IMG/VR virus record: IMGVR_UViG_3300031565_000040 | Coordinates: 1-56,108 of that record | Reading direction: 5' to 3' (one strand) | Origin: a virus | DNA length: 56,108 bases | In this document: positions 2 through 56,108 of the stretch, piece after piece | How the letters are laid out: each line of letters starts with the position of its first letter | How positions within the stretch are numbered: position 1 is the first letter of the stretch | Notes under the pieces: generated by a model | The model's input: only the letters and a program-made list of their open reading frames with translations | Told to the model about the DNA's origin: nothing | Database searches by the model: none | Program-made: the position numbers and the translations under genes

Positions 2-763
2 TATGTCAAAATGGTGCGCCCGATTTTCAAATGGGCGATACGCCAGGGCTGGATTGCAAGCGATCCGTTCGAGGGAGTTCGGAAGTTCCGCGTACCTCAG
101 GAACGGATTCACGTTTACAAGCCATGTCAAATCGAAGCCATGCTTGCGGTGTCCAACGATATTTGGCAGGCAAGAATTTTGGCTGCGGTAACGGCAGGCG
201 CGAGACGTTCGGAAGTCTTGAATCTGACCCTCGATGATATTAACTTCGACGATTGCGAAATAGCAATCCAGCCGAAACGCGACACCGCAGAGACTTGGGA
301 ATACTGGCCGAAGAATAAAAAGTATCGGATAGTACCATTAGTCCCGATGTTTTATAATCTGATAGTCAGTAAGATAATTCCCTCTCTAAAAGGACAGCAG
401 TATCTAACTCTCTCGGAGAAACGTCACTGGACATTGCAGCGGCAAAGACCGTTAAATTACAGAAGAAGAATCAATCCAGATGAGAATTTCAACAAACCGT
501 TTAAGCGAATCATTGAAAGAGCAAACACATTACTTCCTTCTTTAGACAGAATAAGTCTTAACAGGACATTTCACGACCTGAGACGGACCTGTATTACCCA
601 CTGGACCCAGAATCCGAAACTGTCACCGCAGGAAGTACAATTGCTCGCCGGACACGCCGATATTAAGACGACAATGGAGTACTATGCAGCCGTCCGCGAC
701 GACGTGTGCCGACGAGCACAAACATCAATCGGGGCGGCCGGGAATGATCCGGCGACCTCTTGA
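2..763 (+). CDS. Tyrosine integrase, 3' fragment (cut by window start)
   Basis: The window opens inside this gene, equivalent to residue 67 of the complete integrase at 53152-54111. The catalytic domain is present: arginine in AGARRSEV, the HDLRR box, LAGH and the YY motif holding the tyrosine nucleophile. The protein is identical to the second copy after the first ~35 residues. Its family performs site-specific integration and excision of phage DNA. It belongs to the element lying upstream of this window, not to the prophage that follows. Confidence 0.9.
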   Translation, partial: YVKMVRPIFKWAIRQGWIASDPFEGVRKFRVPQERIHVYKPCQIEAMLAVSNDIWQARILAAVTAGARRSEVLNLTLDDINFDDCEIAIQPKRDTAETWEYWPKNKKYRIVPLVPMFYNLIVSKIIPSLKGQQYLTLSEKRHWTLQRQRPLNYRRRINPDENFNKPFKRIIERANTLLPSLDRISLNRTFHDLRRTCITHWTQNPKLSPQEVQLLAGHADIKTTMEYYAAVRDDVCRRAQTSIGAAGNDPATS

Positions 764-811
764 CCCCCAGTCAAACGGTAGGGTCAAAAAGTAAAGTATA
801 ACGGTTCGACC

Positions 812-831
812 AAGCTGTGACAAGCTTTTTT
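812..831 (+). terminator. Possible intrinsic terminator behind integrase
   Basis: AAGCT and AGCTT form a short stem with a six-base loop, followed by a run of T. It sits ~50 bases after the integrase stop and is repeated exactly at 54160-54179. The stem is only 5 bp, so it may be weak. Confidence 0.4.
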
Positions 832-834
832 GAA

Positions 835-963
835 TGTGTCCGGCGGCGTGGTAGCGCCGGTGGCTTAGAGATATGAGATAATGCTTGAGGTTATCAGAAA
901 CTACTAATACTGATGCCAAAAAAGGCAGAGACGTAGCAGGCTGGGGAATCCTGCCCGGACACA
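835..963 (+). ncRNA. Candidate multi-stem structured RNA/att DNA element
   Basis: A 9-bp closing stem (835-843 with 955-963) encloses four hairpins: 844-848/855-859, 877-881/891-895, 914-917/924-927 and 936-940/950-954. All stems are perfect complements, and the last hairpin abuts the closing stem. The region is identical in the second copy at 54183-54311. I do not recognise the family. It could be an RNA or part of a structured recombination site. Strand is uncertain because the pairs are all Watson-Crick. Confidence 0.5.
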
Positions 964-1123
964 GCAAATAACCCGCTTCGAGCTTTCCTTAAAATCTCCT
1001 CGGCTCAGGCGGATTATCTCAGGGATGGGCCGAAGAACACGGATGTCATCGGCGGAGTACAATTTCTGACTATATAAAGACCCTCTTTGACTTTCACTTC
1101 GGCCCCCCTTTTTAAGCTTATCA
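964..1123. other. Conserved non-coding DNA, probable att-site region
   Basis: No gene is visible. GGGCCGAAG (1027-1035) pairs with CTTCGGCCC (1097-1105), enclosing a small hairpin at 1076-1088. Identity with the second copy ends just after, at 1123/54471, and the flanking genes differ from there. That is what a recombination core or its arm would leave in a tandem prophage array. The exact core cannot be set from one window. Confidence 0.4.
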
Positions 1124-1193: not shown

Positions 1194-1535
1194 ATGGAAA
1201 AAAGCGTATTGGAAAAACGAATTATAGAAAAAGCCAAAAATCGTTTTGACCAGGATGTTGAGAGTGCACGTGAAGTCTTAGCAAAACATCCTATACTTAA
1301 TGCTCTTTGGATTCATATCAAAGATAATGTCAAATTGAAACTTTGCGCAGTACACGGCTATTGTCCAGCAACGGACTTATTCACATACTCCCATGATAGA
1401 AAACTACTTTGCGAGAATACAAACTTCTATGAAATCAAGAGCAAATTGATGGAAAAGTACATCGAAGAGGAAACCGACAAAATCCTTAATCAACTTTCTA
1501 TTCTTCAGGATTATATAATCAATGAAAGTGAATAG
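1194..1535 (+). CDS. Small cargo protein, 113 aa, unknown
   Basis: I do not recognise this protein. It is largely helical and charged, with a central stretch containing CAVHGYCPAT that could bind metal. The start is set by AAGGA ten bases upstream. It lies exactly between leader hairpin L1 and the trailer hairpin at 1543-1556. The matching place in the next prophage holds unrelated proteins, so it behaves as an exchangeable cargo gene. Confidence 0.7.
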   Translation: MEKSVLEKRIIEKAKNRFDQDVESAREVLAKHPILNALWIHIKDNVKLKLCAVHGYCPATDLFTYSHDRKLLCENTNFYEIKSKLMEKYIEEETDKILNQLSILQDYIINESE

Positions 1536-1563
1536 AGAGAATCCGCCGAAAGGCGGCTCACGA
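1534..1563 (+). repeat. Cassette trailer hairpin T1 (GNRA loop)
   Basis: AGAGAGAATC is followed by CCGCCGAAAGGCGG, a 5-bp stem with a GAAA tetraloop, then CTCACGA. The unit begins on the stop codon of the gene at 1194. Close copies follow three cargo genes at 54831-54857, 55101-55129 and 55511-55532. Confidence 0.7.
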
Positions 1564-1624: not shown

Positions 1625-1849
1625 ATGAGCAAGAAAACAAGATATATAGACATAAATGATGGTGATGGAATATGTGCAAAATCAGACCAGAGTTTCTATT
1701 TAACATGCTGTGATTGTGCTTTGACTCACCATATTAAGGTCATCATTGTCAAGAATGAAGTAATGATGATGATAACAAGAGATAAACGCAGAACAGCACA
1801 GAAAAGGCGAAGAATTAAAGAAGTGACAGCAGCCGATTTTAAGGAATAA
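1625..1849 (+). CDS. Unknown basic protein, 74 aa
   Basis: Unrecognised. The sequence has a CCDCALTHH metal-ligand-like patch and a strongly basic C-terminal stretch (TRDKRRTAQKRRR), so nucleic-acid binding is possible. ATG at 1625 is preferred over an upstream TTG because GGTGGGAAG sits just before it. The next gene starts five bases after its stop. It is absent from the matching interval of the next prophage. Confidence 0.55.
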   Translation: MSKKTRYIDINDGDGICAKSDQSFYLTCCDCALTHHIKVIIVKNEVMMMITRDKRRTAQKRRRIKEVTAADFKE

Positions 1850-1853
1850 GAAA

Positions 1854-2033
1854 ATGAAAACATGCAAAGTATGTGTGCATTACAGTAAATATGAGGGGGA
1901 TATGTTAAACAAATCAAATCGTGGCGAAAAAATGATAATGTACTGCCGAAAACATGAAGTGCATTACGATAATACAATAAGTTGCTCCGGTTTTGAAGAA
2001 GAACCAATAAAAATAGAAATAACACCAGAGTGA
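1854..2033 (+). CDS. Small Cys/His protein, 59 aa
   Basis: Begins MKTCKVCVHYSKYEGDM and carries CRKHEVHY and ISCSGFEEE further on, so four cysteines and several histidines could hold a zinc. Proteins of this look are common small phage products of unknown role. The RBS AAGGAA overlaps the end of the preceding gene, so the two are probably translated together. Confidence 0.6.
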   Translation: MKTCKVCVHYSKYEGDMLNKSNRGEKMIMYCRKHEVHYDNTISCSGFEEEPIKIEITPE

Positions 2034-2040
2034 ATAAACC

Positions 2041-2146
2041 GGCTTCGGGGCGTTGCCAAAGTCAAGGCAAGGGAGGTCAGACTTAAATTAACACTTTTTT
2101 GAGCATTAAAATAGGAAACTGCAATCAGGATGCCCGAAGCCTTTTT
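2041..2146 (+). ncRNA. Candidate structured leader RNA
   Basis: GGCTTCGGG (2041-2049) pairs with CCCGAAGCC (2133-2141), followed by TTTTT. Inside, TTGCC and GGCAA form a hairpin (2053-2070). The second copy at 55539-55644 keeps the closing stem with one A-to-G change that turns a U-A pair into U-G, as expected if the RNA fold matters. It lies directly before a ribosome-binding site. I cannot match it to a known riboswitch class. Confidence 0.5.
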
Positions 2147-2157
2147 GGAGATAGATT

Positions 2158-3039: not shown

Positions 3040-3189
3040 ATGACAGATAATAGATGCAATTACAAAGTATGGACTGGTAGTTATATAAATCCACAGCGCA
3101 GATGTTCACGCAAAAACGGACATGGCAATAAAGGTTTATATTGTAAGCAACATGCAAAGATAATGAAAAAGCGAAAGGATAAGCAATGA
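3040..3189 (+). CDS. Small Cys/His basic protein, 49 aa
   Basis: Four cysteine/histidine ligands are visible (RCNY, RCSR, LYCKQH) and the C-terminus is very basic. Its start junction AGGACAAGCAATGACAGA is nearly repeated at the start of the next gene (3176-3193), so both genes begin MTDN although they are otherwise unrelated. Its stop overlaps the next ATG. Confidence 0.55.
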   Translation: MTDNRCNYKVWTGSYINPQRRCSRKNGHGNKGLYCKQHAKIMKKRKDKQ

Positions 3190-4025
3190 CAGATAACGCC
3201 AATTTAATACAAGGTTCTCCCGAATGGCATGAAGCCAGGATGGGGAAGATAACTGGAACGGGATTTCATAAAGTCTTATCAAAGAAAGGCAATACCCGCA
3301 AACACTATATGAGAGAGCTAATCCTTGAAAGAAAGACTGGCATATCAACAGAGTCTTTCACTAACGCCGAAATGGAGTGGGGAACACAAAATGAACCTAT
3401 GGCACGGGAATATTATGAGAAGGTCAATTATGGCCGTGTCAAGATTAAGCAAGTGGGATTTATCAATTACCAACCTGAGTCTCAAGCTGAACGAGTAGAG
3501 TTTGCCGAGTATGTAGGTGTTTCTCCAGACGGTTTGGTTGAAACCTTAGAGGCAGATGATGGAGTTATCGAAATCAAATGCCCGAATACCAGTACGCATC
3601 TTGGATATATGGCTTCACGTATTTTGCCTTCAAAGTACAAATCTCAAGTGCAGGGAATACTCTGGGTAACTAAAAGAAAATGGTGTGACTTTATCAGCTT
3701 TGACCCCCGTGTTGAGAAACAGCCTTTTTGTTGTATTAACGTCAAACGAGATGAGGAATATATCAACAATCTCAAGCAAGAAGTATCCAAATTCATAGAT
3801 GAGATGGTAAAAATGCAGAATGAAATAAAAGACGTTGACCCTCAACTTTTGATAGATGTTACGGGTGGGTGTTCTGAGGAGGAATGGTTAGAATCAAGAC
3901 AAATGGAGATTCGGGGCAAAGTCCGTCATGGTGTGGTCTGTGCAATAATTTCAACAGGAAATTTTGAGGATTTGAATAAAGATTTTATCAACAAGTGGGT
4001 CGATTTCATAGTGACGGGAGAATGA
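3186..4025 (+). CDS. YqaJ/lambda-exonuclease-type recombinase nuclease
   Basis: 279 aa, the usual length. Family motifs appear in order: SPEW..AR.GKITGT (11-26), EWGTQNEP (64-71), the acidic GVSPDG (111-116), the catalytic EIK (129-131) and QVQGILWVTKRKW (154-166). The family degrades duplex DNA 5'-3' to leave single strands for annealing during phage recombination and repair. The SSB-like gene at 5965 is a likely partner; no Bet/Erf-type annealing protein was recognised. The last ~50 residues are an unassigned extension. Confidence 0.85.
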   Translation: MTDNANLIQGSPEWHEARMGKITGTGFHKVLSKKGNTRKHYMRELILERKTGISTESFTNAEMEWGTQNEPMAREYYEKVNYGRVKIKQVGFINYQPESQAERVEFAEYVGVSPDGLVETLEADDGVIEIKCPNTSTHLGYMASRILPSKYKSQVQGILWVTKRKWCDFISFDPRVEKQPFCCINVKRDEEYINNLKQEVSKFIDEMVKMQNEIKDVDPQLLIDVTGGCSEEEWLESRQMEIRGKVRHGVVCAIISTGNFEDLNKDFINKWVDFIVTGE

Positions 4026-9454: not shown

Positions 9455-9931
9455 ATGGGTAATTTCGGCCACGTTGAAAAAATAACAAGAGAAGTTGGCG
9501 GCAAGATTTGTACTTTCCGCTCTAAGCTTGAGTACAGGTGGTCTGTCTGGTGTCAGCTAAGGAAAGAGCAGGGCATTATTGTGGAGTGGTGGTATGAGGC
9601 ACACGATACCTTGCTTGAACTGGAAACTGCTTATTTCAAGAATCGCAAACTATACTTGCCCGATTTTACTATCAAGATAATAGACGGCTATGAGTTTGAG
9701 GAGACTAAAGGCTATTTCCCGCCGAAGGACTACACCAAAATCAAGTTAGCTGCACAGCAGTACGAAAACCCAATTACCCTGATATTTGCCAGCCTTCCTT
9801 CTAATAGCAAAAACTCAAAGACAAGAAAACAATACGGTAGGGCAAAGCGGTTAGAGCCTTTTCTCAAAAGAGTAATCTATAATGCAAATCGTGATATATT
9901 CAAAAAAATAAAACATTTATTTACTGCATGA
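9455..9931 (+). CDS. PD-(D/E)XK nuclease, DUF1064-like
   Basis: 158 aa. FRSKLEYRW (22-30), LYLPDFTI (~66-73) and EFEETKGY (~79-86) give the acidic E, D and E-x-K core of the endonuclease fold, in the order seen in DUF1064/phage endonuclease relatives. The C-terminus is basic. It probably cuts or resolves phage DNA intermediates and sits with the recombination genes. Confidence in fold is good; the exact substrate is unknown. Confidence 0.65.
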   Translation: MGNFGHVEKITREVGGKICTFRSKLEYRWSVWCQLRKEQGIIVEWWYEAHDTLLELETAYFKNRKLYLPDFTIKIIDGYEFEETKGYFPPKDYTKIKLAAQQYENPITLIFASLPSNSKNSKTRKQYGRAKRLEPFLKRVIYNANRDIFKKIKHLFTA

Positions 9932-17665: not shown

Positions 17666-17983
17666 ATGATTAGAGTGAAGTCTCGCAAAAATGGAATATG
17701 TCAGGATATGTGTGATTTCGGTTTTCATAGTTATATGCGGGTTCCTTTTTATGTGTGGCATGAAGACCCGGATTGTGAAGATACTCCAAGGGATATACCC
17801 AGCAACTTACGTAAGTATTTTGCCAGTCTTGCCGAACAGGGTGTAATTCTCAGTGATAGGCAGAAGGCGTGGTATGTGAATATGCTTGCACGCAGACTTA
17901 ATGACGTTGAGTTAATGAAGTTTGAGTACCCGTCAACAGAGGAGGAATTTATATTTTTTGGTCGAGATTATAGGGAAGCATAA
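17666..17983 (+). CDS. Terminase-large fragment-like protein, 105 aa
   Basis: Residues ~24-100 align with residues 221-296 of the full terminase that follows: PFYVWHEDP with HFYAWHQDP, RKYFASLAEQGV with NGYFEELAEKGI, RQKAWY with EQRAWY, and KFEYPSTEEEF with KQEHPSTVDEAF. Both ends of terminase are missing. It starts on a junction copy with an intact frame, so it is either a maintained domain (perhaps a packaging regulator) or a remnant of an exchanged terminase gene. Confidence 0.65.
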   Translation: MIRVKSRKNGICQDMCDFGFHSYMRVPFYVWHEDPDCEDTPRDIPSNLRKYFASLAEQGVILSDRQKAWYVNMLARRLNDVELMKFEYPSTEEEFIFFGRDYREA

Positions 17984-19949: not shown

Positions 19950-20069
19950 ATGACACCATTTCAAGCTCTACTTTATGGACTGTTGTGTTTTACGGTAGGT
20001 TATTTATTTAGAGAATTTGAAAAATGGCTATTAAAAAAACCAGAAGAACCGAACGAGGTTAAGGAATGA
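19950..20069 (+). CDS. Small membrane protein, 39 aa
   Basis: One membrane span (ALLYGLLCFTVGYLF), then a charged tail ending PEEPNEVKE. The tail is encoded by the junction GAACGAGGTTAAGGAATGA shared with the next genes. Stop and next start overlap. First of four membrane-anchored genes inserted between terminase and connector. Confidence 0.5.
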   Translation: MTPFQALLYGLLCFTVGYLFREFEKWLLKKPEEPNEVKE

Positions 20070-20171
20070 TAATTAAGACACTTATCAAAATATCTTTTGT
20101 TTTGTTTATCGCCTGCCTTTTATTTTGGTTAGTTTATTTCATTGGTTTGGATTCCGAGCCAAACGAACCGA
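20053..20171 (+). repeat. 119-bp duplicated gene start (first copy)
   Basis: Identical to 20809-20927. It covers the junction, start codon and first ~35 codons, including the membrane anchor, of two genes whose remaining parts are unrelated. Exact identity implies a recent copying event. Confidence 0.9.
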
Positions 20172-20557: not shown

Positions 20558-20832
20558 AGAAAGAACAAAAAGCGAGCTTATATATCTTATTTTACTTACT
20601 ATTCTTGGGATTATGGTTCTTCGGAGTTTACGACTATATTTGGGAAAAATACCAAATTCATCGACTAACACCAGATTTAAGAATAAATATCATCGGCCTT
20701 GATAAACCGGAACTTGATAAGAGATATTATCATTTCGTTACAGATTACACCGAAAGCGGATTGCCGTTAAAAGGCGGAGTTGGCTTTACTAAGGAAGAAT
20801 ATGATGCTACGAGGTTAAGGAATGATAATTAA
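20554..20832 (+). CDS. Membrane-anchored protein, 92 aa
   Basis: MKKEQKASLYILFYLLFLGLWFF gives an N-terminal anchor; the remaining ~60 residues are soluble and charged. Unrecognised. The C-terminus (ATRLRNDN) is encoded through the junction in another frame, so it lacks the NEVK tail of its neighbours. Confidence 0.5.
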   Translation: MKKEQKASLYILFYLLFLGLWFFGVYDYIWEKYQIHRLTPDLRINIIGLDKPELDKRYYHFVTDYTESGLPLKGGVGFTKEEYDATRLRNDN

Positions 20833-20927
20833 GACACTTATCAAAATATCTTTTGTTTTGTTTATCGCCTGCCTTTTATTTTGGTTAGTTTATTTCATTG
20901 GTTTGGATTCCGAGCCAAACGAACCGA
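20809..20927 (+). repeat. 119-bp duplicated gene start (second copy)
   Basis: Exact copy of 20053-20171, spanning the junction and anchor-coding start of the 180-aa protein gene. Confidence 0.9.
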
Positions 20928-36534: not shown

Positions 36535-37410
36535 ATGGCGGATAATGAAGAAAAACGGGCCTTATGCAACAGGGCGATAACAATTCTAACTGCCGGTATG
36601 ACCGCTCAGGCGGGGATTCTCCATACAGAGATAACCGATGAGCAGTTCGCCGACTATACTTCGGTAACGACCGACCAACAGATAAAGCTTTTATGCTTTT
36701 TGTACGAGCCGGTCTTATTGAAGGTCATTCTCGATATTCAGCCGGACTTCGCTAAACAGTTCGCAGACTTGGGGAATGAGATTTGTATCAATAAAGAGGT
36801 AGGCGACTGGGGACTTCTATTCGAGTTGCCGAGTAACTTTATAGAAGATGAAAATGCGTTAATTGCCCAAATCAGTCAGGCCAATAGGAAAACTAAATAT
36901 GACTGCAAGATTCTGACTTTCGACGGTTACGCCCATGTCGTTAAGGGTACGGACGAACAGTCGTGGTATTGTAAGACCGACCATACGGCGGCGGCGGCCA
37001 ATAAACCGATTACCGGTGCAGATTACGCAACCTATTGGACTCTCTATAATACCGACGACTCTTACGGTGCTGATTGGGTATCTGGATGGTCTTACAAAGC
37101 CTCTCAGGACGGCAAATTATTAGCGGCCAATTCCTATTCCAATCTTGATGGTGACAGTGCGTATATAGAGTATCTCGCCTACATTCAGGCCGGTATTTCC
37201 GACAAGCCCGCGTATTATCCCAATGCCTTTAAGAACGCCTTCTGTACGAGACTTGCAGCTGAGATGGCGGAGGATGGTCACGATTACGAGCGCAGAAGAA
37301 AACTTATGGAGGAATACGAGTTAATTGCCAAGCCGCGGGTGTGGCAGGTTCAGAACAGGAACGATTTCGAGGAAACAAGACCGACATTTTTAGAGTCAAG
37401 GACGATATGA
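36535..37410 (+). CDS. Tail tube adaptor, T7-gp11-like, with CBM-like insert
   Basis: 291 aa, no signal. The front (EEKRALCNRAITILTAG) and LLFELPSNFI, with a late FKNAFCTRLAAEMAE helix, match tail-tube/adaptor proteins that join portal and nozzle. A segment around 141-180 (SWYCKTDHTAAAANKPITG) looks like an inserted carbohydrate-binding-type module. The start is at ATG 36535, behind GGGGGG. Its stop overlaps the nozzle start. Confidence 0.65.
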   Translation: MADNEEKRALCNRAITILTAGMTAQAGILHTEITDEQFADYTSVTTDQQIKLLCFLYEPVLLKVILDIQPDFAKQFADLGNEICINKEVGDWGLLFELPSNFIEDENALIAQISQANRKTKYDCKILTFDGYAHVVKGTDEQSWYCKTDHTAAAANKPITGADYATYWTLYNTDDSYGADWVSGWSYKASQDGKLLAANSYSNLDGDSAYIEYLAYIQAGISDKPAYYPNAFKNAFCTRLAAEMAEDGHDYERRRKLMEEYELIAKPRVWQVQNRNDFEETRPTFLESRTI

Positions 37411-39935
37411 TGAAAAGGTTCATACTTATATTTATATTCTGTACGGCAGCGATGGGCGCGAGCCTTACGCAAACAATTTCTCTCAATAGTTTCAACGCCG
37501 GTGAACTCTCGCCTCTTATGAACGCACGGGTGGACTATCCGAAATATAAACTCGGCGCAAAGACTTTAGAGAACATGATAGTAAGGGCGCAAGGGCCAAT
37601 ATCGAGGAGGCCGGGCACTAAATACATCGCTTCGGTAAAAGACGATACGGACGCTACAAGACTGATTCCCTTCGAGTATTCGACTATCTACGCCTATATT
37701 GAAGAAGTAGGCGACAAATACGCGAGGTTCTACCGTACCGTTGATGGTGTAGCCGGTCCGATTGTAACTACTTATTCTGCATGGGCCACATCCACGGCTT
37801 ACAGTGTAGGTGCGTTAGTGACACACAGCGGTTACTATCGGTGTTTGGTAGCCCATACATCAGATGATTGGGATACCGATTTAACTGCCGTCAAATGGGC
37901 AGTAACCGCCGGGGCTACCGATCTTGCCTACGAGATAGTCACACCGTGGGACGAAAGCGACGTCTTTGAGCTTCAATTCTGTCAGGATGCCGAGACGATG
38001 AGAATTGTCCATCCCGACTACGAACCCTACAAACTCACGAGGACTGGTCATACCTCATGGACGTGCACGCCGATAAACTCTACCACCGGCCCTTTTCTCG
38101 ATGAGAATAACGATACTACGTGGACTCTGACATCAAATAAGACTACGGGTACGGGCGCTACTATTACTTCAACGGACGACCTTTTCTTGCCCGACCCAAA
38201 CTACGTAGGTGCGTTGTTTCAAATAAGTCATTCCCTTGCCGCCGGTTCGGTAACGAAGTTATTTTGGTCGTCTGGTGATTCAACTTCGGATTCGATTACA
38301 GTCCAGAAGTACCGGTACTACGATGTCATTACAAGCGGTTCATGGGCGGGCACTTTCAAAATACAAAGGTCTTACGGTGACGATGTTTGGGAGGATGTCT
38401 ACAGTATCCGCTATACGTATAACGGGAATATCCAATATTCCGGGCAGGAACTTGAAAAGACCTGCCTTTACCGAATGAAAATGGTAGACCAGTATTTAAC
38501 AAGCCACAACCTACGGCATTACGAGGGTATGTGCTACGGCAATTTTAACGCTCGCGGCTTTATGAATAACGGAGTGGTCGAGATAACCAGTGTTACGAAT
38601 ACGAAGGTCGCTACTGCCGATATAAAGATAGCTATAGGAGCGGCCGATACTACTACTTATCACTGGTCGGAGGGTGCATGGAGCAATTACCGGGGCTGGC
38701 CGAGGACGGTCGAGCATCACGAGCAGAGAGTCATTTACGGCGGCTCAGCATCTTATCCCCAGGCTATATGGGCCTCTATTATAGCGACTCAGGACTCCGA
38801 TTACGATGACTTCACTGCCAATACCGAATCCGATTCCACAGGGAATTTAGGAGGCCCGGATGATATTGCGTGGACATATACATTGCCGGGCATGAATCCA
38901 ATTCAATGGATGAAGTCAACCGAATATTTAATGATAGGCACGACTTCGGGGGTAGGGAAATTAGGCCAGCCGGACAAACCAATTACTCCCAACTTCCCCC
39001 CGACTTTTCGTATCCAGAACCATAACGGGTGCGCTTATATTCAGCCGAAAGGCGCGGTTGACGCCCTTCTCTACATAGAGAGGGGCGGTCAGAAAGTCAG
39101 GGAACTCGCCTTTGCATACTCTTCAGATAAATACGAAGCGCCTGATATGACCGTCTTGGCCGAGCACATAACAGGCGATGGCATAGTCGAGATAGATTTT
39201 CAGAACCGGCCGGAACCTATCTTATGGTGCATCAGGGAAGATGGTCAGTTGCTTTCATTCACCTATCACAGAAAGCACGATGTCCTTGCGTGGTCGAGGA
39301 ACGATACGGGCATTGCAGACAAGTTCAAATCGGTAGCGGTGATACCCGGTACTAACGAGGACGAACTTTGGGCGATAGTTGACAGGACGGTAGATACTTA
39401 CGTTGAGCAGTTCCAGCCGTGGGACTGGGGGACAGACCAGAACGACTGCTACTTTGTGGATTGTGCGGTCGATGATATAACGAATTTGATTCATATCGAG
39501 GGCGAGACGGTCGCTCTATTTGCGGACGGCCGGCCGATAGGCACTTACACGGTCTCAGGAGGCGAGATAAGTCCATCGGGTAGTTATACCTATACTACAG
39601 TGGGGCTTCCTTATACATCCGTTTTCGAGACAATGCCGCTTACAGCCTCATCGAGTCATGGTTATATAAACGCAGAATATACAAGGATAGCATCTCTCAT
39701 TGTTGACTTTTACAAGACTTTAGGCTGTCACATAGGCCCGGATGCAACCAATACCCACGATTTCAAGTTCTCCAACGATTCTTTCGCCACGACTTTGGAT
39801 GTTGTAACAGACTTTAAGGTGTCACCGTATCTGTGGGGAACGAAACGGTCGCCGACAATCTATTTTCAGGAATCCGATCCTATCCCTCTGACTATCAGGG
39901 GCGTTTATCCGAGAGTTATAGTAAGTTATGATTAA
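37407..39935 (+). CDS. Tail nozzle/stabilisation protein with signal peptide
   Basis: 843 aa. Residues 1-19 (MMKRFILIFIFCTAAMGAS) look like a Sec signal. Then SFNAGELSPLMNARVDYPKY and RAQGPISRRPGTKYIA mark the podoviral tail-nozzle family. A CBM-like block YSVGALVTHSGYYRCLVAHT lies near residue 132. Residues ~622-843 are repeated as a paralogue in the next gene. This is normally an essential cytoplasm-assembled tail protein, which makes the signal unexpected. Confidence 0.75.
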   Translation: MMKRFILIFIFCTAAMGASLTQTISLNSFNAGELSPLMNARVDYPKYKLGAKTLENMIVRAQGPISRRPGTKYIASVKDDTDATRLIPFEYSTIYAYIEEVGDKYARFYRTVDGVAGPIVTTYSAWATSTAYSVGALVTHSGYYRCLVAHTSDDWDTDLTAVKWAVTAGATDLAYEIVTPWDESDVFELQFCQDAETMRIVHPDYEPYKLTRTGHTSWTCTPINSTTGPFLDENNDTTWTLTSNKTTGTGATITSTDDLFLPDPNYVGALFQISHSLAAGSVTKLFWSSGDSTSDSITVQKYRYYDVITSGSWAGTFKIQRSYGDDVWEDVYSIRYTYNGNIQYSGQELEKTCLYRMKMVDQYLTSHNLRHYEGMCYGNFNARGFMNNGVVEITSVTNTKVATADIKIAIGAADTTTYHWSEGAWSNYRGWPRTVEHHEQRVIYGGSASYPQAIWASIIATQDSDYDDFTANTESDSTGNLGGPDDIAWTYTLPGMNPIQWMKSTEYLMIGTTSGVGKLGQPDKPITPNFPPTFRIQNHNGCAYIQPKGAVDALLYIERGGQKVRELAFAYSSDKYEAPDMTVLAEHITGDGIVEIDFQNRPEPILWCIREDGQLLSFTYHRKHDVLAWSRNDTGIADKFKSVAVIPGTNEDELWAIVDRTVDTYVEQFQPWDWGTDQNDCYFVDCAVDDITNLIHIEGETVALFADGRPIGTYTVSGGEISPSGSYTYTTVGLPYTSVFETMPLTASSSHGYINAEYTRIASLIVDFYKTLGCHIGPDATNTHDFKFSNDSFATTLDVVTDFKVSPYLWGTKRSPTIYFQESDPIPLTIRGVYPRVIVSYD

Positions 39936-42426
39936 ACTACTTATAATATTATTTTTATGCCTAACACCTGAGCAGAAAGCGTGGGAAAACATTCAGTTAC
40001 CTAACGATTCCGTTCTTGCATGGTCGCGCCATAAGACGGGATACAATCAGGATGATAAGTTTCTTTCCGTAGCGACTATTCCCGGATCAGGTGGAGAGGA
40101 TGAGGTCTGGGTGATAGTCGAAAGGACTATAGATGGTGTAAAGCAAGTCAATGTCGAGCAATTCCAGCCCCGCGACTTCGGAGACCAGAACAATGCTTGG
40201 TTTGTCGATTGTGGCTTAGTGGGATGGAGCGATGGCGGTGGTGGGTTAATTAACATAATTGAACCTACCGATGATGTTACGGTGGGCGAATATCCGACTT
40301 TGCAGGAACTTACTGACGATGAGATACCTGATACCCCGGCAGAGCCGGAAGATACGGCGCTTGTCGGAGCAACGAACGTCAATGATTACGCCGGATTACA
40401 GGCTATGACCGGATCAGGTCATTATAATATCACTGGCGATATAGATTTGGAAGGTGAAACGTGGATTCCGATAGATGATTTCAGTGGGGTTATAGAAGGT
40501 AATGGTTTTACAATTTCAAATTTAACTCATACCGCAGAAGCATCGGCATTCGATACCGGCATGTTCAATAATCTACTTTCCGGCGCGGAAATACGCAATT
40601 TGACATTGAAAGATTTTGCCATTACAGGTGATTTTGGGACGGGTGCTTTGGCAGGTAACGGAGTTGGGGATATTGTAATTAAAGATGTTAATGTAACAGG
40701 TTGCACAATTGAGGGTTATTGCTATCTTGGTGCACTCGTTGGTTTTCTGGAAGAAATAACTTCCGGTGGTATTTATGATTGTGATGCAATTGATTGTACT
40801 ATATCGGGTACGGACTGGTCAGGCGGCTTGTGTGGATATATTGAAATTGATAACGATGCAACAGATGACTTTAATATTGTCAACTGTAGTGTTGCTGACG
40901 GCACTCTTACAGTATTGGATGGTACTTATTGCGGTGGCTTGGTCGGTTCGGGAGAGGGAACAATCCATACTACCCCGGATAGATATATCACTTTTCATAC
41001 ATGCAGTTCCTCTATGAACATAATAGTAGGGGACACAGATGAAGCGCAGTCTCTTGGCGGATTTATTGGCCTTGCAGACTGGTGCGATTTCATCAGTTGT
41101 TCCGCAACAGGTAATATAGATTATATAGGTTCAGATAGTGGCGGCATTCCTTATGGAATAGGCGGTTTTGTCGGATTTGAAACAGGCGTAGGCACGTATA
41201 TAAATTGCTATTCAACCGGCGATATAACAATGGACGCAGAAAACTTTTCTCTAATGCAGCTCATTGGAGGCTTTGTCGGAAAATGCGACCAGACAGCAAC
41301 TCAGATATTTACTCGATGCTATTCAACTGGTGATATTACTATGACAAATGTTGGCAGTATGTCATGGCATGGAGTTGGTGGTTTTATGGGAGGCTATCTT
41401 GGTACTGGCGGAACAATTAGAAGATGCTGGTCTGAAGGCGATATTAGTTTAGACGACGAAGGAGTGCCGGGAGTAACATACAAAGGCGGACTTGGAAGTT
41501 TTATAGGCATGATATGGCATAGCGATACCGGGGCAGGAACAATCGAAAATTGCTATGCCTGGGGCAGTATAACAATCGAGACACTGAACGAGAACGATGA
41601 TGATTTGGGCGTTAGCGGCTTTTTGGGAAGTATAGCAAAATTAGGGACATACACATTGACGAATTGCTACGATGCCCAGACCGATACGGCGACAGGTTCG
41701 GGATATACAAGTCAAATCCCAACGGGAGATTATTCCAAAGGTTTGGTCGGATGGCTTACGACGTCTGTTACTGTAACCGATACTGCAATATTCTGGGATA
41801 CAGAGACATCAGGTATAGACGAAGATGATTATGCCGTTGGCCATATAACGACATGGATGCAGACACAGGCGAACTACGAGGCCGCCGGTTGGGACTTCGA
41901 TACGATATGGGTTTTGGATGAAGTGACTACCCCTGGCGAGCCTGGCGACAGCGAACCTAATACATGGAGCGGCATGGATCATGCTATTGGTATGGAAGTA
42001 TGTGTTTACGCCGATGGCCGACCGATAGGAGTTTATACTGTAGATGCCAACGGTGTCTTGGATTTAGGTGCGGAATACGAGACTGTAATAGCCGGTATAA
42101 ACTATTATTCAACTTATGAGTCTTTTCCCTTAGTCACGGAGACCAACTTCGGTTTGAGTACCGGCCAGCAGGCGAGGATAATGGATATTACAATAGACTT
42201 CTACGAGTCTTTAGGCTGTCACGTGGGGGTTGACAGGACTAACAGTACCGACTGGATTTTTAGTAAAGACGATTTCGCAACGAGGATCGACCTTGTGACC
42301 GAATACAAAAAAGGTTCTTTCCTGTGGGGCACTACGCGCGAGCCGATAGTCTATTTGTGGGAATGGGAGCCTGTGCCTCTAACCGTGAGGGCAATATATC
42401 CGAAAATGGGGGTAACAAGTGATTAA
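39928..42426 (+). CDS. Nozzle C-terminal paralogue with inserted GLUG domain
   Basis: 832 aa. After a hydrophobic start (MIKLLIILFLCL), residues 27-96 (VLAWSRHKTG...WFVDCG) and 683-832 (VYADGRPIGVYTV...YPKMG) match the nozzle's C-terminal third. Between them, ~146-660, is a GLUG beta-solenoid, with repeats such as GGFVGFETGVGTYINCYSTG and GGFIGLADWCDFISCSATG. This suggests an exchangeable receptor-binding module inserted in a duplicated nozzle tip. It overlaps both neighbours by 8 bases. Confidence 0.75.
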   Translation: MIKLLIILFLCLTPEQKAWENIQLPNDSVLAWSRHKTGYNQDDKFLSVATIPGSGGEDEVWVIVERTIDGVKQVNVEQFQPRDFGDQNNAWFVDCGLVGWSDGGGGLINIIEPTDDVTVGEYPTLQELTDDEIPDTPAEPEDTALVGATNVNDYAGLQAMTGSGHYNITGDIDLEGETWIPIDDFSGVIEGNGFTISNLTHTAEASAFDTGMFNNLLSGAEIRNLTLKDFAITGDFGTGALAGNGVGDIVIKDVNVTGCTIEGYCYLGALVGFLEEITSGGIYDCDAIDCTISGTDWSGGLCGYIEIDNDATDDFNIVNCSVADGTLTVLDGTYCGGLVGSGEGTIHTTPDRYITFHTCSSSMNIIVGDTDEAQSLGGFIGLADWCDFISCSATGNIDYIGSDSGGIPYGIGGFVGFETGVGTYINCYSTGDITMDAENFSLMQLIGGFVGKCDQTATQIFTRCYSTGDITMTNVGSMSWHGVGGFMGGYLGTGGTIRRCWSEGDISLDDEGVPGVTYKGGLGSFIGMIWHSDTGAGTIENCYAWGSITIETLNENDDDLGVSGFLGSIAKLGTYTLTNCYDAQTDTATGSGYTSQIPTGDYSKGLVGWLTTSVTVTDTAIFWDTETSGIDEDDYAVGHITTWMQTQANYEAAGWDFDTIWVLDEVTTPGEPGDSEPNTWSGMDHAIGMEVCVYADGRPIGVYTVDANGVLDLGAEYETVIAGINYYSTYESFPLVTETNFGLSTGQQARIMDITIDFYESLGCHVGVDRTNSTDWIFSKDDFATRIDLVTEYKKGSFLWGTTREPIVYLWEWEPVPLTVRAIYPKMGVTSD

Positions 42427-53067: not shown

Positions 53068-53133
53068 AAGCTTACGCAGCTTGACGTAGCGTGCTTGTCT
53101 TATTATTATGGCGACCGTCACAGTTTGGTCGCC
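53068..53133 (+). promoter_or_regulatory. Integrase promoter, operator-like repeat and leader hairpin
   Basis: TTGACG (53081-53086) and TATTAT (53104-53109) are 17 bases apart. An imperfect inverted repeat (AAGC..ACGC with GCGTGCTT, ~53068-53098) spans the -35, like an operator. GGCGACC/GGTCGCC (53110-53116/53127-53133) then forms a hairpin 11 bases before GGAGG. Confidence 0.5.
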
Positions 53134-53151
53134 GTAGAAACGGAGGTATCT

Positions 53152-54111
53152 ATGAGACTAAGCACGAATAATCTCGTCTCGGAGTACATGCAGACTGCCG
53201 AGTCAATGGATTTGGCGGAATCGACGAGAGAGGCAAAAGTTAGGTTGTTTGAGGAGATAGAAAGATTGTTTGAATACGTTGACGAATTTGATGTAAACAA
53301 GTATCAGCTTTATCTTCTTAAAACCCGAAAGAAAGTGTCGGTAAACAGTTATGTCAAAATGGTGCGCCCGATTTACAAATGGGCGATACGCCAGGGCTGG
53401 ATTGCAAGCGATCCGTTCGAGGGAGTTCGGAAGTTCCGCGTACCCCTGGAGCGGATTCACGTTTACAAGCCATGTCAAATCGAAGCCATGCTTGCGGTGT
53501 CCAACGATATTTGGCAGGCAAGAATTTTGGCTGCGGTAACGGCAGGCGCGAGACGTTCGGAAGTCTTGAATCTGACCCTCGATGATATTAACTTCGACGA
53601 TTGCGAAATAGCAATCCAGCCGAAACGCGACACCGCAGAGACTTGGGAATACTGGCCGAAGAATAAAAAGTATCGGATAGTACCATTAGTCCCGATGTTT
53701 TATAATCTGATAGTCAGTAAGATAATTCCCTCTCTAAAAGGACAGCAGTATCTAACTCTCTCGGAGAAACGTCACTGGACATTGCAGCGGCAAAGACCGT
53801 TAAATTACAGAAGAAGAATCAATCCAGATGAGAATTTCAACAAACCGTTTAAGCGAATCATTGAAAGAGCAAACACATTACTTCCTTCTTTAGACAGAAT
53901 AAGTCTTAACAGGACATTTCACGACCTGAGACGGACCTGTATTACCCACTGGACCCAGAATCCGAAACTGTCACCGCAGGAAGTACAATTGCTCGCCGGA
54001 CACGCCGATATTAAGACGACAATGGAGTACTATGCAGCCGTCCGCGACGACGTGTGCCGACGAGCACAAACATCAATCGGGGCGGCCGGGAATGATCCGG
54101 CGACCTCTTGA
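53152..54111 (+). CDS. Phage integrase, tyrosine recombinase
   Basis: 319 aa. Residues 1-98 are the core-binding domain (STREAKVRLFEEIERLFEYV, VKMVRPIYKWAIRQGW). The catalytic set is complete: R134 in AGARRSE, H257 and R260 in HDLRR, H284 in LAGH, Y293/294. Start is set by GGAGGTATCT; longer frames upstream cover the promoter. It would integrate and excise the prophage at the att region just downstream. It has its own promoter and leader. Confidence 0.85.
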   Translation: MRLSTNNLVSEYMQTAESMDLAESTREAKVRLFEEIERLFEYVDEFDVNKYQLYLLKTRKKVSVNSYVKMVRPIYKWAIRQGWIASDPFEGVRKFRVPLERIHVYKPCQIEAMLAVSNDIWQARILAAVTAGARRSEVLNLTLDDINFDDCEIAIQPKRDTAETWEYWPKNKKYRIVPLVPMFYNLIVSKIIPSLKGQQYLTLSEKRHWTLQRQRPLNYRRRINPDENFNKPFKRIIERANTLLPSLDRISLNRTFHDLRRTCITHWTQNPKLSPQEVQLLAGHADIKTTMEYYAAVRDDVCRRAQTSIGAAGNDPATS

Positions 54112-54471
54112 CCCCCAGTCAAACGGTAGGGTCAAAAAGTAAAGTATAACGGTTCGACCAAGCTGTGACAAGCTTTTTTGAATGTGTCCGGCGGCGTGGT
54201 AGCGCCGGTGGCTTAGAGATATGAGATAATGCTTGAGGTTATCAGAAACTACTAATACTGATGCCAAAAAAGGCAGAGACGTAGCAGGCTGGGGAATCCT
54301 GCCCGGACACAGCAAATAACCCGCTTCGAGCTTTCCTTAAAATCTCCTCGGCTCAGGCGGATTATCTCAGGGATGGGCCGAAGAACACGGATGTCATCGG
54401 CGGAGTACAATTTCTGACTATATAAAGACCCTCTTTGACTTTCACTTCGGCCCCCCTTTTTAAGCTTATCA
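53349..54471. repeat. Right copy of integrase-end/att long direct repeat
   Basis: Matches 1-1123. The non-coding half includes the terminator-like hairpin (54160-54179) and the multi-stem element (54183-54311). Identity ends at 54471, where the next element's own left end begins. Confidence 0.9.
54183..54311 (+). ncRNA. Second copy of multi-stem structured element
   Basis: Identical to 835-963, with the 9-bp closing stem at 54183-54191/54303-54311 and four inner hairpins. Complete conservation in both copies gives no covariation test here. Confidence 0.5.
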
Positions 54472-54484
54472 TCACCCTCCTCCG

Positions 54485-54516
54485 AAGCCAGATTCTGTTT
54501 TTTTAGAATCTGGCTT
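54485..54516. terminator. Perfect 12-bp stem terminator
   Basis: AAGCCAGATTCT pairs exactly with AGAATCTGGCTT around GTTTTTTT, followed by TATT. It is absent from the left copy, so it was gained or lost between the two prophages. It would insulate the cargo genes from integrase transcription. Confidence 0.6.
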
Positions 54517-54536
54517 TATTGAGAACACACTCGGTC

Positions 54537-54553
54537 GGGGCACTCTTGGCCCC
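54537..54553 (+). promoter_or_regulatory. Cassette leader hairpin L2
   Basis: GGGGC/GCCCC stem followed by AATCG, TTTTATTAAAGAAAGGG and the start codon at 54583. Equivalent to L1 but with a shorter stem. Confidence 0.5.
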
Positions 54554-54582
54554 AATCGTTTTATTAAAGAAAGGGACAAGAC

Positions 54583-54822
54583 ATGATACATACAAAAGTA
54601 TTTGCCACAGAAGATGAAATTAAAGATTTGCGGGCATTAGCATGTCAAGGGTGGATGCCTGGGGACGTAATGATGGTTACTTCTGTTATGCAAGGAATAA
54701 CAAAAGACCAAAAAACGGTTGATGCACGAAAGATTTGCCACAATTTAGCTCTTTCACACGGATTAAAAGAAATTGAGGGCTATTATGGTATTACCGAAGA
54801 AGGTGAATTTGTAAATTTTTGA
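54583..54822 (+). CDS. Cargo protein, 79 aa, unknown
   Basis: MIHTKVFATEDEIKDLRALA, then ARKICHNLALSHGLKEIEGY. A compact helical protein, not recognised. Set between leader L2 and a trailer hairpin. The stop TGA lies in TTTGACAACTTAAGAGA, a trailer sequence read in another frame by the gene at 55281. Confidence 0.6.
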   Translation: MIHTKVFATEDEIKDLRALACQGWMPGDVMMVTSVMQGITKDQKTVDARKICHNLALSHGLKEIEGYYGITEEGEFVNF

Positions 54823-54836
54823 CAACTTAAGAGACT

Positions 54837-54850
54837 CCGCCGAAAAGCGG
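54837..54850 (+). repeat. Cassette trailer hairpin T2
   Basis: CCGC/GCGG stem around CGAAAA, a diverged form of CCGCCGAAAGGCGG, preceded by AAGAGACT and followed by TTCACGATA. Confidence 0.55.
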
Positions 54851-54875
54851 TTCACGATACTAATTTTATTTGAAA

Positions 54876-54907
54876 GGGGTTGACTGAAGCGCGAATAGGT
54901 CAACCCC
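54876..54907 (+). promoter_or_regulatory. Cassette leader hairpin L3
   Basis: GGGGTTGAC (54876-54884) pairs perfectly with GTCAACCCC (54899-54907), then GTTATTGAAAGG. The stem sequence differs from L1 and L4 but the pairing and the motif after it are kept. Confidence 0.6.
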
Positions 54908-54926
54908 GTTATTGAAAGGAATTAAA

Positions 54927-55100
54927 ATGAAGTTACCAAAGAAAATCTATGTGAAAAAAGAAAAAGATGGCGATGAGGAATTTCTTATTGCAGGAGAAAA
55001 AGCCAGTGAAATCGCAGACCAAGAAGACGTAACAAAAGCAGGAGAATATATTCTCAAGCGAGAAGTCAATCTTGTTAATGCAACCGAGGTACATCCTTGA
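54927..55100 (+). CDS. Cargo protein, 57 aa, unknown
   Basis: MKLPKKIYVKKEKDGDEEFL, then an acidic helical end. Unrecognised; a small beta-hairpin start is likely. Between leader L3 and trailer T3. ATG 54927 is preferred to an upstream TTG because GAAAGGA is well spaced. Confidence 0.55.
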   Translation: MKLPKKIYVKKEKDGDEEFLIAGEKASEIADQEDVTKAGEYILKREVNLVNATEVHP

Positions 55101-55129
55101 GAGAGAATCCGCCGAAAGGCGGCTCACGA
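55101..55129 (+). repeat. Cassette trailer hairpin T3
   Basis: GAGAGAATCCGCCGAAAGGC plus GGCTCACGA, identical to T1 at 1535-1563. CCGCC/GGCGG with a GAAA loop at 55109-55122. Confidence 0.7.
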
Positions 55130-55252
55130 TAGTCGATCCGAACGCCGGGGTAGAGTAAACGCGCGTTAGACCATACGGGTTCAAAGATCAAGGCGTGACT
55201 TGCCGGTGGAGAGTAACCGGCTTTGATGGGGTCATGGATGACTCTTGGCCCC
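55130..55252 (+). other. Structured spacer and leader hairpin L4
   Basis: No gene. TCAAAG/CTTTGA encloses AAG..CTT and GCCGG/CCGGC (55202-55221) hairpins, a small junction structure. A palindrome AACGCGCGTT lies at ~55159. L4, GGGGTCA/TGGCCCC (55228-55234/55246-55252), then leads to the next gene. The spacer is absent from the other cassettes. Confidence 0.4.
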
Positions 55253-55280
55253 AATCGTTATTAAAGAAAGGGACGTGAAA

Positions 55281-55511
55281 ATGAAGAAGAAAATCTTTTT
55301 GAATAGCGAAGAAAAAAAACTTTTAGAGTCTGAAATAACAAATGAACAGACAGGTCTAACTTTGATGACACAAGGGGCAAAGTTTTATAACGAAGCCGAA
55401 GAAAAGCTTCAGGCAATGGTTAAAGAAAAGTGGCCCACGGCAACAAAACTGCATCATCCACTAAAAGGCAAATGGTCAGTAATTATTGAGGATGCCGATT
55501 TGACAACTTAA
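55281..55511 (+). CDS. Cargo protein, 76 aa, unknown
   Basis: MKKKIFLNSEEKKLLESEIT, then a helical middle and KGKWSVIIEDADLTT. Unrecognised. The last codons and stop lie inside trailer T4 (TTTGACAACTTAAGAGA), so the tail DLTT comes from the trailer. ATG 55281 follows AAAGGGACG. Confidence 0.55.
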   Translation: MKKKIFLNSEEKKLLESEITNEQTGLTLMTQGAKFYNEAEEKLQAMVKEKWPTATKLHHPLKGKWSVIIEDADLTT

Positions 55512-55532
55512 GAGAGAATCCGCCGAAAGGCG
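55511..55532 (+). repeat. Cassette trailer hairpin T4
   Basis: AGAGAGAATCCGCCGAAAGG then CG: four pairs and the GAAA loop remain, and the sequence then joins directly to the structured leader element. Confidence 0.6.
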
Positions 55533-55538
55533 ATAACC

Positions 55539-55646
55539 GGCTTCGGGGCGTTGCCAAAGTCAAGGCAAGGGAGGCTAAACTAAATTAACACCTTTTTGAG
55601 CGTTAAATTAGGAAACTGCAATATAGGATGCCCGGAGCCGTTTTGG
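55539..55646 (+). ncRNA. Second copy of structured leader RNA
   Basis: GGCTTCGGG (55539-55547) pairs with CCCGGAGCC (55631-55639), with one U-G in place of the U-A of the first copy. The TTGCC/GGCAA hairpin and the GGAAACTGCAAT block are kept. It again ends just before a GGAGATAG ribosome-binding site. Confidence 0.5.
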
Positions 55647-55654
55647 AGATAGAA

Positions 55655-55801
55655 ATGATAACTTTAGCATTAGGAATATCAATATATTTGTGGCTTAAAG
55701 TCACCCCAACCCTTGAAATATTAGAAGCAGGTAGTGCTATTCTTATAGCTATGTTATTTGATTTTATAATAGCGATTACAGCGTGCATTTGTTTTTCATA
55801 A
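55655..55801 (+). CDS. Small membrane protein, 48 aa
   Basis: Two hydrophobic spans (LALGISIYLWLKV and SAILIAMLFDFIIAITACIC). It has no equivalent in the first copy: there the structured leader leads straight to the 40-aa membrane gene. It is thus a clean single-gene difference between the two prophages. Confidence 0.55.
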   Translation: MITLALGISIYLWLKVTPTLEILEAGSAILIAMLFDFIIAITACICFS

Positions 55802-55811
55802 GGAAAAGGAG

Positions 55812-55934
55812 ATGAACTATTATCGAGACAAATTTATAGAGAATGTTGAGATGGTTGATTGTATGTGGTGGCTCTGCAAATGGACGGCAATAGCCATGTT
55901 TTTTATATGGCTCGGAACGAAGATTGGAGGTTAA
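55812..55934 (+). CDS. Small single-pass membrane protein, 40 aa (second copy)
   Basis: Homologue of the gene at 2158. The C-terminal KWTAIAMFFIWLGTKIGG is identical; the N-terminal half differs at several positions. It leads to the next gene by the same GGAGG overlap. Confidence 0.65.
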   Translation: MNYYRDKFIENVEMVDCMWWLCKWTAIAMFFIWLGTKIGG

Positions 55935-55936
55935 TC

Positions 55937-56108
55937 ATGCCCGAAGAAAAGAAATCAATTTATCAGTTAAAGCTGCACGAAGAACTGTCACTTAGTAAAT
56001 GGATGTGTGTATTGAGAGTTCCAGGTGGATGGATATACCAAACCTCTGACCCTCGATATGAATGGGACAATATGGCCGTTTTCGTCCCTTTCAGCAACCA
56101 ATTTTATC
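55937..56108 (+). CDS. Helix-turn-helix protein, 5' fragment (cut by window end)
   Basis: First 57 codons of a homologue of the gene at 2283, with few differences (for example YQLKLHEELSLSKWMCV). The DNA-binding half lies beyond the window. Confidence 0.75.
   Translation, partial: MPEEKKSIYQLKLHEELSLSKWMCVLRVPGGWIYQTSDPRYEWDNMAVFVPFSNQFY

Follow-up and report, generated by a model that had tools for sequence, protein, structure and literature searches.

The stretch of DNA analysed here (hereafter the window) is the whole of IMG/VR record IMGVR_UViG_3300031565_000040 (G000), 56,108 bases read on one strand, in which neither tRNA genes nor Rfam matches were found. It appears to belong to an uncultured, temperate-type, podovirus-like phage, with a head-to-tail connector (PF12236), an internal virion protein match and a large terminase subunit. 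Our analyses have focussed on a set of small genes and hairpins located beside the gene of a tyrosine recombinase (phage integrase, 338 aa; 53095..54111, + strand; Pfam PF00589, E 1.2e-15; phrog_1 and phrog_216), the 3' part of which is repeated at 1-763 by the wrap-around of the contig. Positions 1-1125 match 53349-54473 with only six differences (at 27, 97, 99, 103, 1124 and 1125), leaving 1,020 bp without mismatch between the two (104..1123 = 53452-54471, + strand by allele comparison), and 2361-2454 are identical to the final 94 bases of the window. Given these two overlaps, the left and right copies are best read as alleles from two strains of a single phage, with a genome of ca. 53.3 kb that is either circular or terminally redundant. 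Since the contig stops once the second passage rejoins the first, the assembler would have walked round the genome and then out along a strain variant. We have called allele A the tract 1136-2360 and allele B the tract 54485-56014. Beyond the variable part, the copies rematch from 2037 and from 2158 at ca. 91-92% identity, i.e., a right flank that is about 8% different in a patchy way. Both gene sets are directly seen in the contig beside the same integrase sequence; the pairing of flanks with alleles is unphased, and given the uncertain phasing of the assembly the alleles may combine flanks of different genomes.

The initial annotation had located these genes at the left end of a prophage, a placement that finds no support, as no prophage end is visible in the window and the ends overlap as in a circularising phage contig. 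One could also imagine two related prophages in tandem in one host chromosome, with the integrase region present twice on the contig and a different sequence after each copy. However, host DNA was not recognised on the contig, which begins inside the integrase gene and breaks off 94 bases into the stretch where allele B is again the same as allele A, the arrangement of a variant-bubble assembly, and another IMG/VR record (G002), 100% identical over 2925-46504, lacks the doubled region. We consider the tandem arrangement very unlikely.

Four genes of the region, starting at 1194, 54583, 54927 and 55281, are framed, each with a leader before the start codon and a trailer after the gene. The gene content is a-b-c in allele A and d-e-f-g in allele B, with no relation among these genes. 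The framed ones are gene a (113 aa, 1194..1535) in allele A and genes d (79 aa, 54583..54822), e (57 aa, 54927..55100) and f (76 aa, 55281..55511) in allele B, all on the + strand, so that the count given earlier, one cassette in one copy and three in the other over the same interval, was correct. The four framed proteins are unrelated to each other, and the G+C content of their genes is 35-37%, vs 44.6% for the window. Profile searches gave no confident family for d, e or f, and the comparison of the cassette proteins to PHROGs, Pfam, NCBIfam and PADLOC returned only weak matches far below the cut-offs. Gene a has distant phage relatives, ATCCB_0063 of Lactobacillus phage ATCCB (38%) and genes in two IMG/VR phages, all of them without leader or trailer, so the frames do not travel with the genes. 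In allele A, neither gene b (1625-1849) nor gene c (1854-2033) has a leader hairpin (1625..2033, + strand, by gene prediction and fold survey), and the same is true for other small genes of the neighbourhood, including g and h (the starts without leader being 1625, 1854, 55655, 55812 and 2158). The + strand immediately before the cassette genes yielded no sigma-70-like promoter, with a consensus that may not be the phage's own. Between e and f, the tract 55139-55200 has by eye the look of a broken tRNA (GCCGGGGTAGAG ... GGGTTCAAA), and ARAGORN calls none there.

Both borders of the variable segment carry predicted structures. At the point of divergence of the two alleles, allele B has a perfect hairpin, AAGCCAGATTCT...AGAATCTGGCTT (54485..54517, + strand; fold z -7.2). 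The right boundary is formed by R3, a candidate structured element of ca. 110 nt closed by GGCTTCGGG/CCCGAAGCC (or CCCGGAGCC) on the + strand (2036..2147 in allele A, 55534-55645 in allele B), which is followed by a T run and does not differ between the alleles over its first 40 nt. Rfam gave no match for R3, and a search of IMG/VR with its pattern recovered two unrelated matches and no relative. For the region as a whole, Rfam yielded nothing at the gathering score and nothing meaningful at E values up to 5. Between the integrase gene and the cassettes, 830-970 (= 54178-54318) is a candidate multi-branched structured RNA closed by GTGTCCGG/CCGGACAC, identical in both alleles, with a fold z of -3.0 and no counterpart among the Rfam families.

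The leaders consist of a hairpin followed by a tail, CGTTATTAAAGAAAGG, that is exact at 1168 and 55256 and has two mismatches at 54559. Only two other matches exist in the window, with 3 mismatches each, and shuffled sequences had a mean of 0.78 matches, none of 100 reaching 5. L1 (1141..1183; tail search, fold and model), in allele A, has GGGGTCA/TGGCCCC as its stem, predicted to fold with 10 bp, and a Shine-Dalgarno tail. In allele B, L2 (54537..54575; fold and model) has its 5' half replaced compared to L1 and keeps a 5-bp stem, GGGGC/GCCCC; L3 (54876..54916; fold and model) pairs perfectly over 10 bp, with another stem sequence, and has a Shine-Dalgarno, and L4 (55228..55271) was recovered by tail search, fold and model. 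All four are on the + strand. A covariance model built from L1, L2 and L4 found them with E values from 1e-21 to 3e-17, the next best match in the window being at 0.45; as the members match by construction, it is this gap that is informative. The same model gave L3 (gene at 54927) only 7.4 bits (E 1.5), i.e., did not score it as a relative, and therefore, judging from the sequences, L1, L2 and L4 are homologous and L3 is an analogue for which homology is not proven. The initial annotation had described a GGGG/CCCC hairpin with a near-constant tail before all four genes; the element is real and above chance, with the restrictions that the stem of L2 has just 5 bp and that L3 is only an analogue. 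The perfect pairing of the divergent L3 stem was there as described.

The predicted stability of the leaders is variable, with fold z-scores against shuffles of -4.2 for L1 (1194), -3.5 for L3 (54927), -1.5 for L4 (55281) and -1.1 for L2 (54583). In a crude survey of upstream folding energy among 80 predicted gene starts, the four framed genes rank 2nd, 4th, 5th and 7th, which amounts to about two independent cases because three of the leaders are homologous. By hand comparison, the stems of L1/L4, L2 and L3 have two or three pairs in which both partners changed with pairing retained. This would hint at a structure kept while its sequence changed, four leaders being too few for a claim of covariation.

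The trailer sequence GAGAATCCGCCGAAAGGCGG is present in the window only at 1537, 54831, 55103 and 55514, i.e., after each of the four framed genes as had been proposed, vs a mean of 0.01 in shuffles, and a covariance model recovers the four copies at E 3e-11 to 2e-9, with the next best match at 0.47. All four, T1 (1534..1563), T2 (54818..54858), T3 (55100..55130) and T4 (55499..55535), were located by trailer search and model on the + strand. In genes a, e and f they begin at the stop codon. A 17-mer within T2, TTTGACAACTTAAGAGA, overlaps the 3' end of gene d, and T4, which runs straight into R3, has the same 17-mer in another frame (modulo 3, its offset is 1 in gene d but 2 in gene f). This 17-mer includes both stop codons and supplies a different one to each gene. 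The earlier proposal that the trailer is read in different frames in two cassettes, and so is shared at gene ends at the level of DNA, is thus borne out. T2 and T4 have stems of 4 bp; the predicted folds are weak for two of the four trailers and likewise for two of the four leaders.

The joins between genes and elements are ragged. The common trailer DNA varies from 17 to 30 nt, and in d and f it starts inside coding DNA, in different frames. At the left side, L1 and L2 occupy the same place beside an identical integrase flank and have only the 3' half in common: in L2 the 5' half of L1 is gone and another has taken its place, with the GGGGC/GCCCC stem preserved. Identity between the alleles is also patchy, with 4 mismatches in 103 bp, none in the following 1,020 bp, then new genes, and then 92% identity with long clean runs; such runs appeared in 0/20,000 and ca. 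2/1,000 trials when mismatches were placed at random. The mismatch-free tract 104-1123 sits between surroundings that differ by 4-8%. This tract, the sharing of variable length and the coding-end 17-mer in two frames are what homologous or illegitimate recombination leaves behind when it acts at short repeats. With two alleles of differing gene content between the same flanks, one part of the initial annotation is supported, i.e., that gene-sized pieces are replaced between recurring intergenic elements next to the gene of a tyrosine recombinase.

That annotation had also drawn an analogy with integrons, and here the evidence points in the opposite direction. An integron-like mechanism would have the adjacent tyrosine recombinase excising and inserting single-gene cassettes at folded hairpin sites, and the region does resemble integrons and the CALINs of phages (PMC9892861) by its array of small, unrelated, cassette-like genes in one orientation, its repeated hairpins, its neighbouring tyrosine recombinase and the differing content of its alleles. 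However, the recombinase is not IntI (22.9 bits against the integron-integrase model TIGR02249, whose cut-off is 265), and the box-pattern search for an attC pair (RYYYAAC...GTTRRRY, 40-150 nt apart) was negative on either strand of either allele. Moreover, each intergenic unit folds into distinct small hairpins instead of a single cruciform with paired ends, there are two kinds of element per gene (leader and trailer) vs one attC, and the cassettes are not joined at one fixed nucleotide, since the common DNA is of varying length and enters coding ends in two frames. On the integrase model, the missing attC boxes and the ragged junctions we reject an integron or CALIN, and we give almost no credence to an integron-like mechanism. 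Nothing beyond proximity ties the integrase to the repeats. For this same region one might also think of a single-gene cassette system specific to this phage and unrelated to integrons, in which leader and trailer hairpins would be paired DNA sites for active capture and exchange of small genes by the adjacent integrase or a phage recombinase, something that we regard as highly improbable.

The elements, confined to this region, and the two versions of it between the same flanks are there to be seen in the contig. The explanation that we favour, with some reserve, is that this is a small hypervariable accessory-gene region beside the integrase in which phage genes are probably shuffled by recombination at recurring, lineage-specific 5' and 3' untranslated expression elements, and not an integron. 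The leader, with a Shine-Dalgarno shortly before the ATG and a hairpin just upstream, would act as a 5' UTR and translation-start signal, while the trailer, which places a short stable hairpin immediately behind the stop codon, would protect the 3' end; both would be kept for this predicted role in expression. Because the elements recur, they would provide 17-50 nt of homology, usable by phage recombination systems, for gene-by-gene replacement during mixed infection. The exchange would probably be carried out by the phage's own RecE-like, YqaJ / lambda-exonuclease-type recombination nuclease (3186..4025, + strand; PF09588, E 3.7e-23; phrog_149 and phrog_434), or else by host recombination, rather than by site-specific recombination through the integrase. 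Red-type and Rad52-like recombinases and relaxed homology are the subject of PMC2327257 and PMC3945230. No single-strand annealing protein was identified in this phage; a weak endonuclease or Holliday-junction-resolvase-like candidate lies at 9455..9931 (+ strand; phrog_945 and phrog_190, E ca. 1e-6), with no match in Pfam or NCBIfam.

The main alternative sees in the hairpins nothing more than UTR regulatory elements, copied along with the gene slots, and attributes the variation between alleles to generic illegitimate recombination or deletion in which the repeats take no part. All the elements do hold one orientation and position with respect to the start and stop codons, and an analogue such as L3, with another sequence, is what one would expect if function and not homology were selected. 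Searches outside the window bear on this point. The exact 16-mer of the leader was found at 25 loci of IMG/VR, none of them with the leader hairpin, and the exact 20-mer of the trailer at none. A structured leader pattern gave 6 loci in IMG/VR, four of which (L108, L110, L111 and L112) were other hairpins before a start codon, in unrelated viral contigs where a GGGG/CCCC hairpin lies directly before TTATTAAAGAAAGG and ATG. By their sequence these look like terminator-like hairpins fused to a start signal, and their covariance E values (0.001-0.03) were discounted, the loci having been picked with the same pattern. In GTDB the trailer pattern had one match, in apparent coding DNA, close to the chance number (estimated expectation ca. 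0.1). For the idea that such hairpins might stand beside all kinds of host genes, there was no homologous copy in IMG/VR and a single near-chance trailer match in GTDB, but analogous hairpins with TTATTAAAGAAAGG do precede the ATGs of unrelated phage genes, and for this reason a UTR role is plausible. Against an uninvolved role for the repeats, d and f have 17 nt of coding-end DNA in common in different frames, and L1 and L2 lie in the same place with the 5' half swapped, so the joins do fall at the elements. We consider the plain UTR alternative rather unlikely, if still a serious competitor to shuffling at the elements.

Searches for other versions of the region were little rewarding. The integrase led to one relative, cut off at its contig end, and the protein at 2283 to none. 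With the terminase we recovered an identical record in which the region is absent, together with two others at 76-77%; nucleotide searches of phages and plasmids gave none, and no close relative was present in the phage collection. The evidence base is therefore one phage with two alleles, no relative carrying the region having been found.

Among known systems, the nearest by proposed role are the PeSLs of T4-like phages, intergenic stem-loops for which modular gene shuffling has been proposed (Arbiol et al., 2010; Comeau et al., 2014, as cited in PMC4503421). As in that account, the stem-loops here are intergenic, with small orphan genes on either side, and the region that holds them is plastic. 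In contrast, the PeSLs join an early promoter to a stem-loop or terminator in T4-like myoviruses, while here no promoter was recognised and hairpins stand both before and after the gene in a podovirus-like phage (PF12236). By 5' anatomy, the nearest are the SAS/ESAS of cluster K mycobacteriophages, a 13-bp consensus, GGGATAGGAGCCC, in 11-19 copies (PMC3203893). Like the leaders, they are private to one lineage, take in the translation start signal of unrelated non-structural genes, have in many copies an inverted repeat just upstream and lie in large intergenic gaps (PMC3203893). However, the sequences are unrelated, the copies here are 3-4 vs 11-19, and the ESAS arms do not support RNA pairing, whereas the L1 and L3 stems do. 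To our knowledge, no paired trailer is known in PeSLs or in cluster K SAS/ESAS. As the sequences are unrelated, the region is a member of neither group and would rather work like them. The conserved module-boundary sequences of lambdoid phages (discussed in PMC3029335) are likewise short common sequences at gene borders at which homologous recombination can swap modules, but here the repeats recur several times in one genome and form hairpins; the borders are common to the two alleles, one pair only. If the elements do guide exchange, a podovirus-like lineage would here be shuffling its modules gene by gene, through a pair of elements, 5' and 3', instead of one linker, and with two alleles in one assembled contig; it would offer a testable case for the gain of small accessory genes pre-fitted with expression signals.

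Some features elsewhere in the window deserve mention. Upstream of the large terminase gene (17984), the tract 17747-17947 encodes a fragment with 39% identity to residues 246-314 of the terminase, which looks like a second or decayed terminase piece. A perfect 119-bp repeat, detected through the 100% identical record G002, whose coordinates run in the direction of those of the window, is present at 20053-20171 and 20809-20927. Finally, at 37341-42426 two neighbouring large proteins have common segments with 41-60% identity, which suggests a structural gene duplication.
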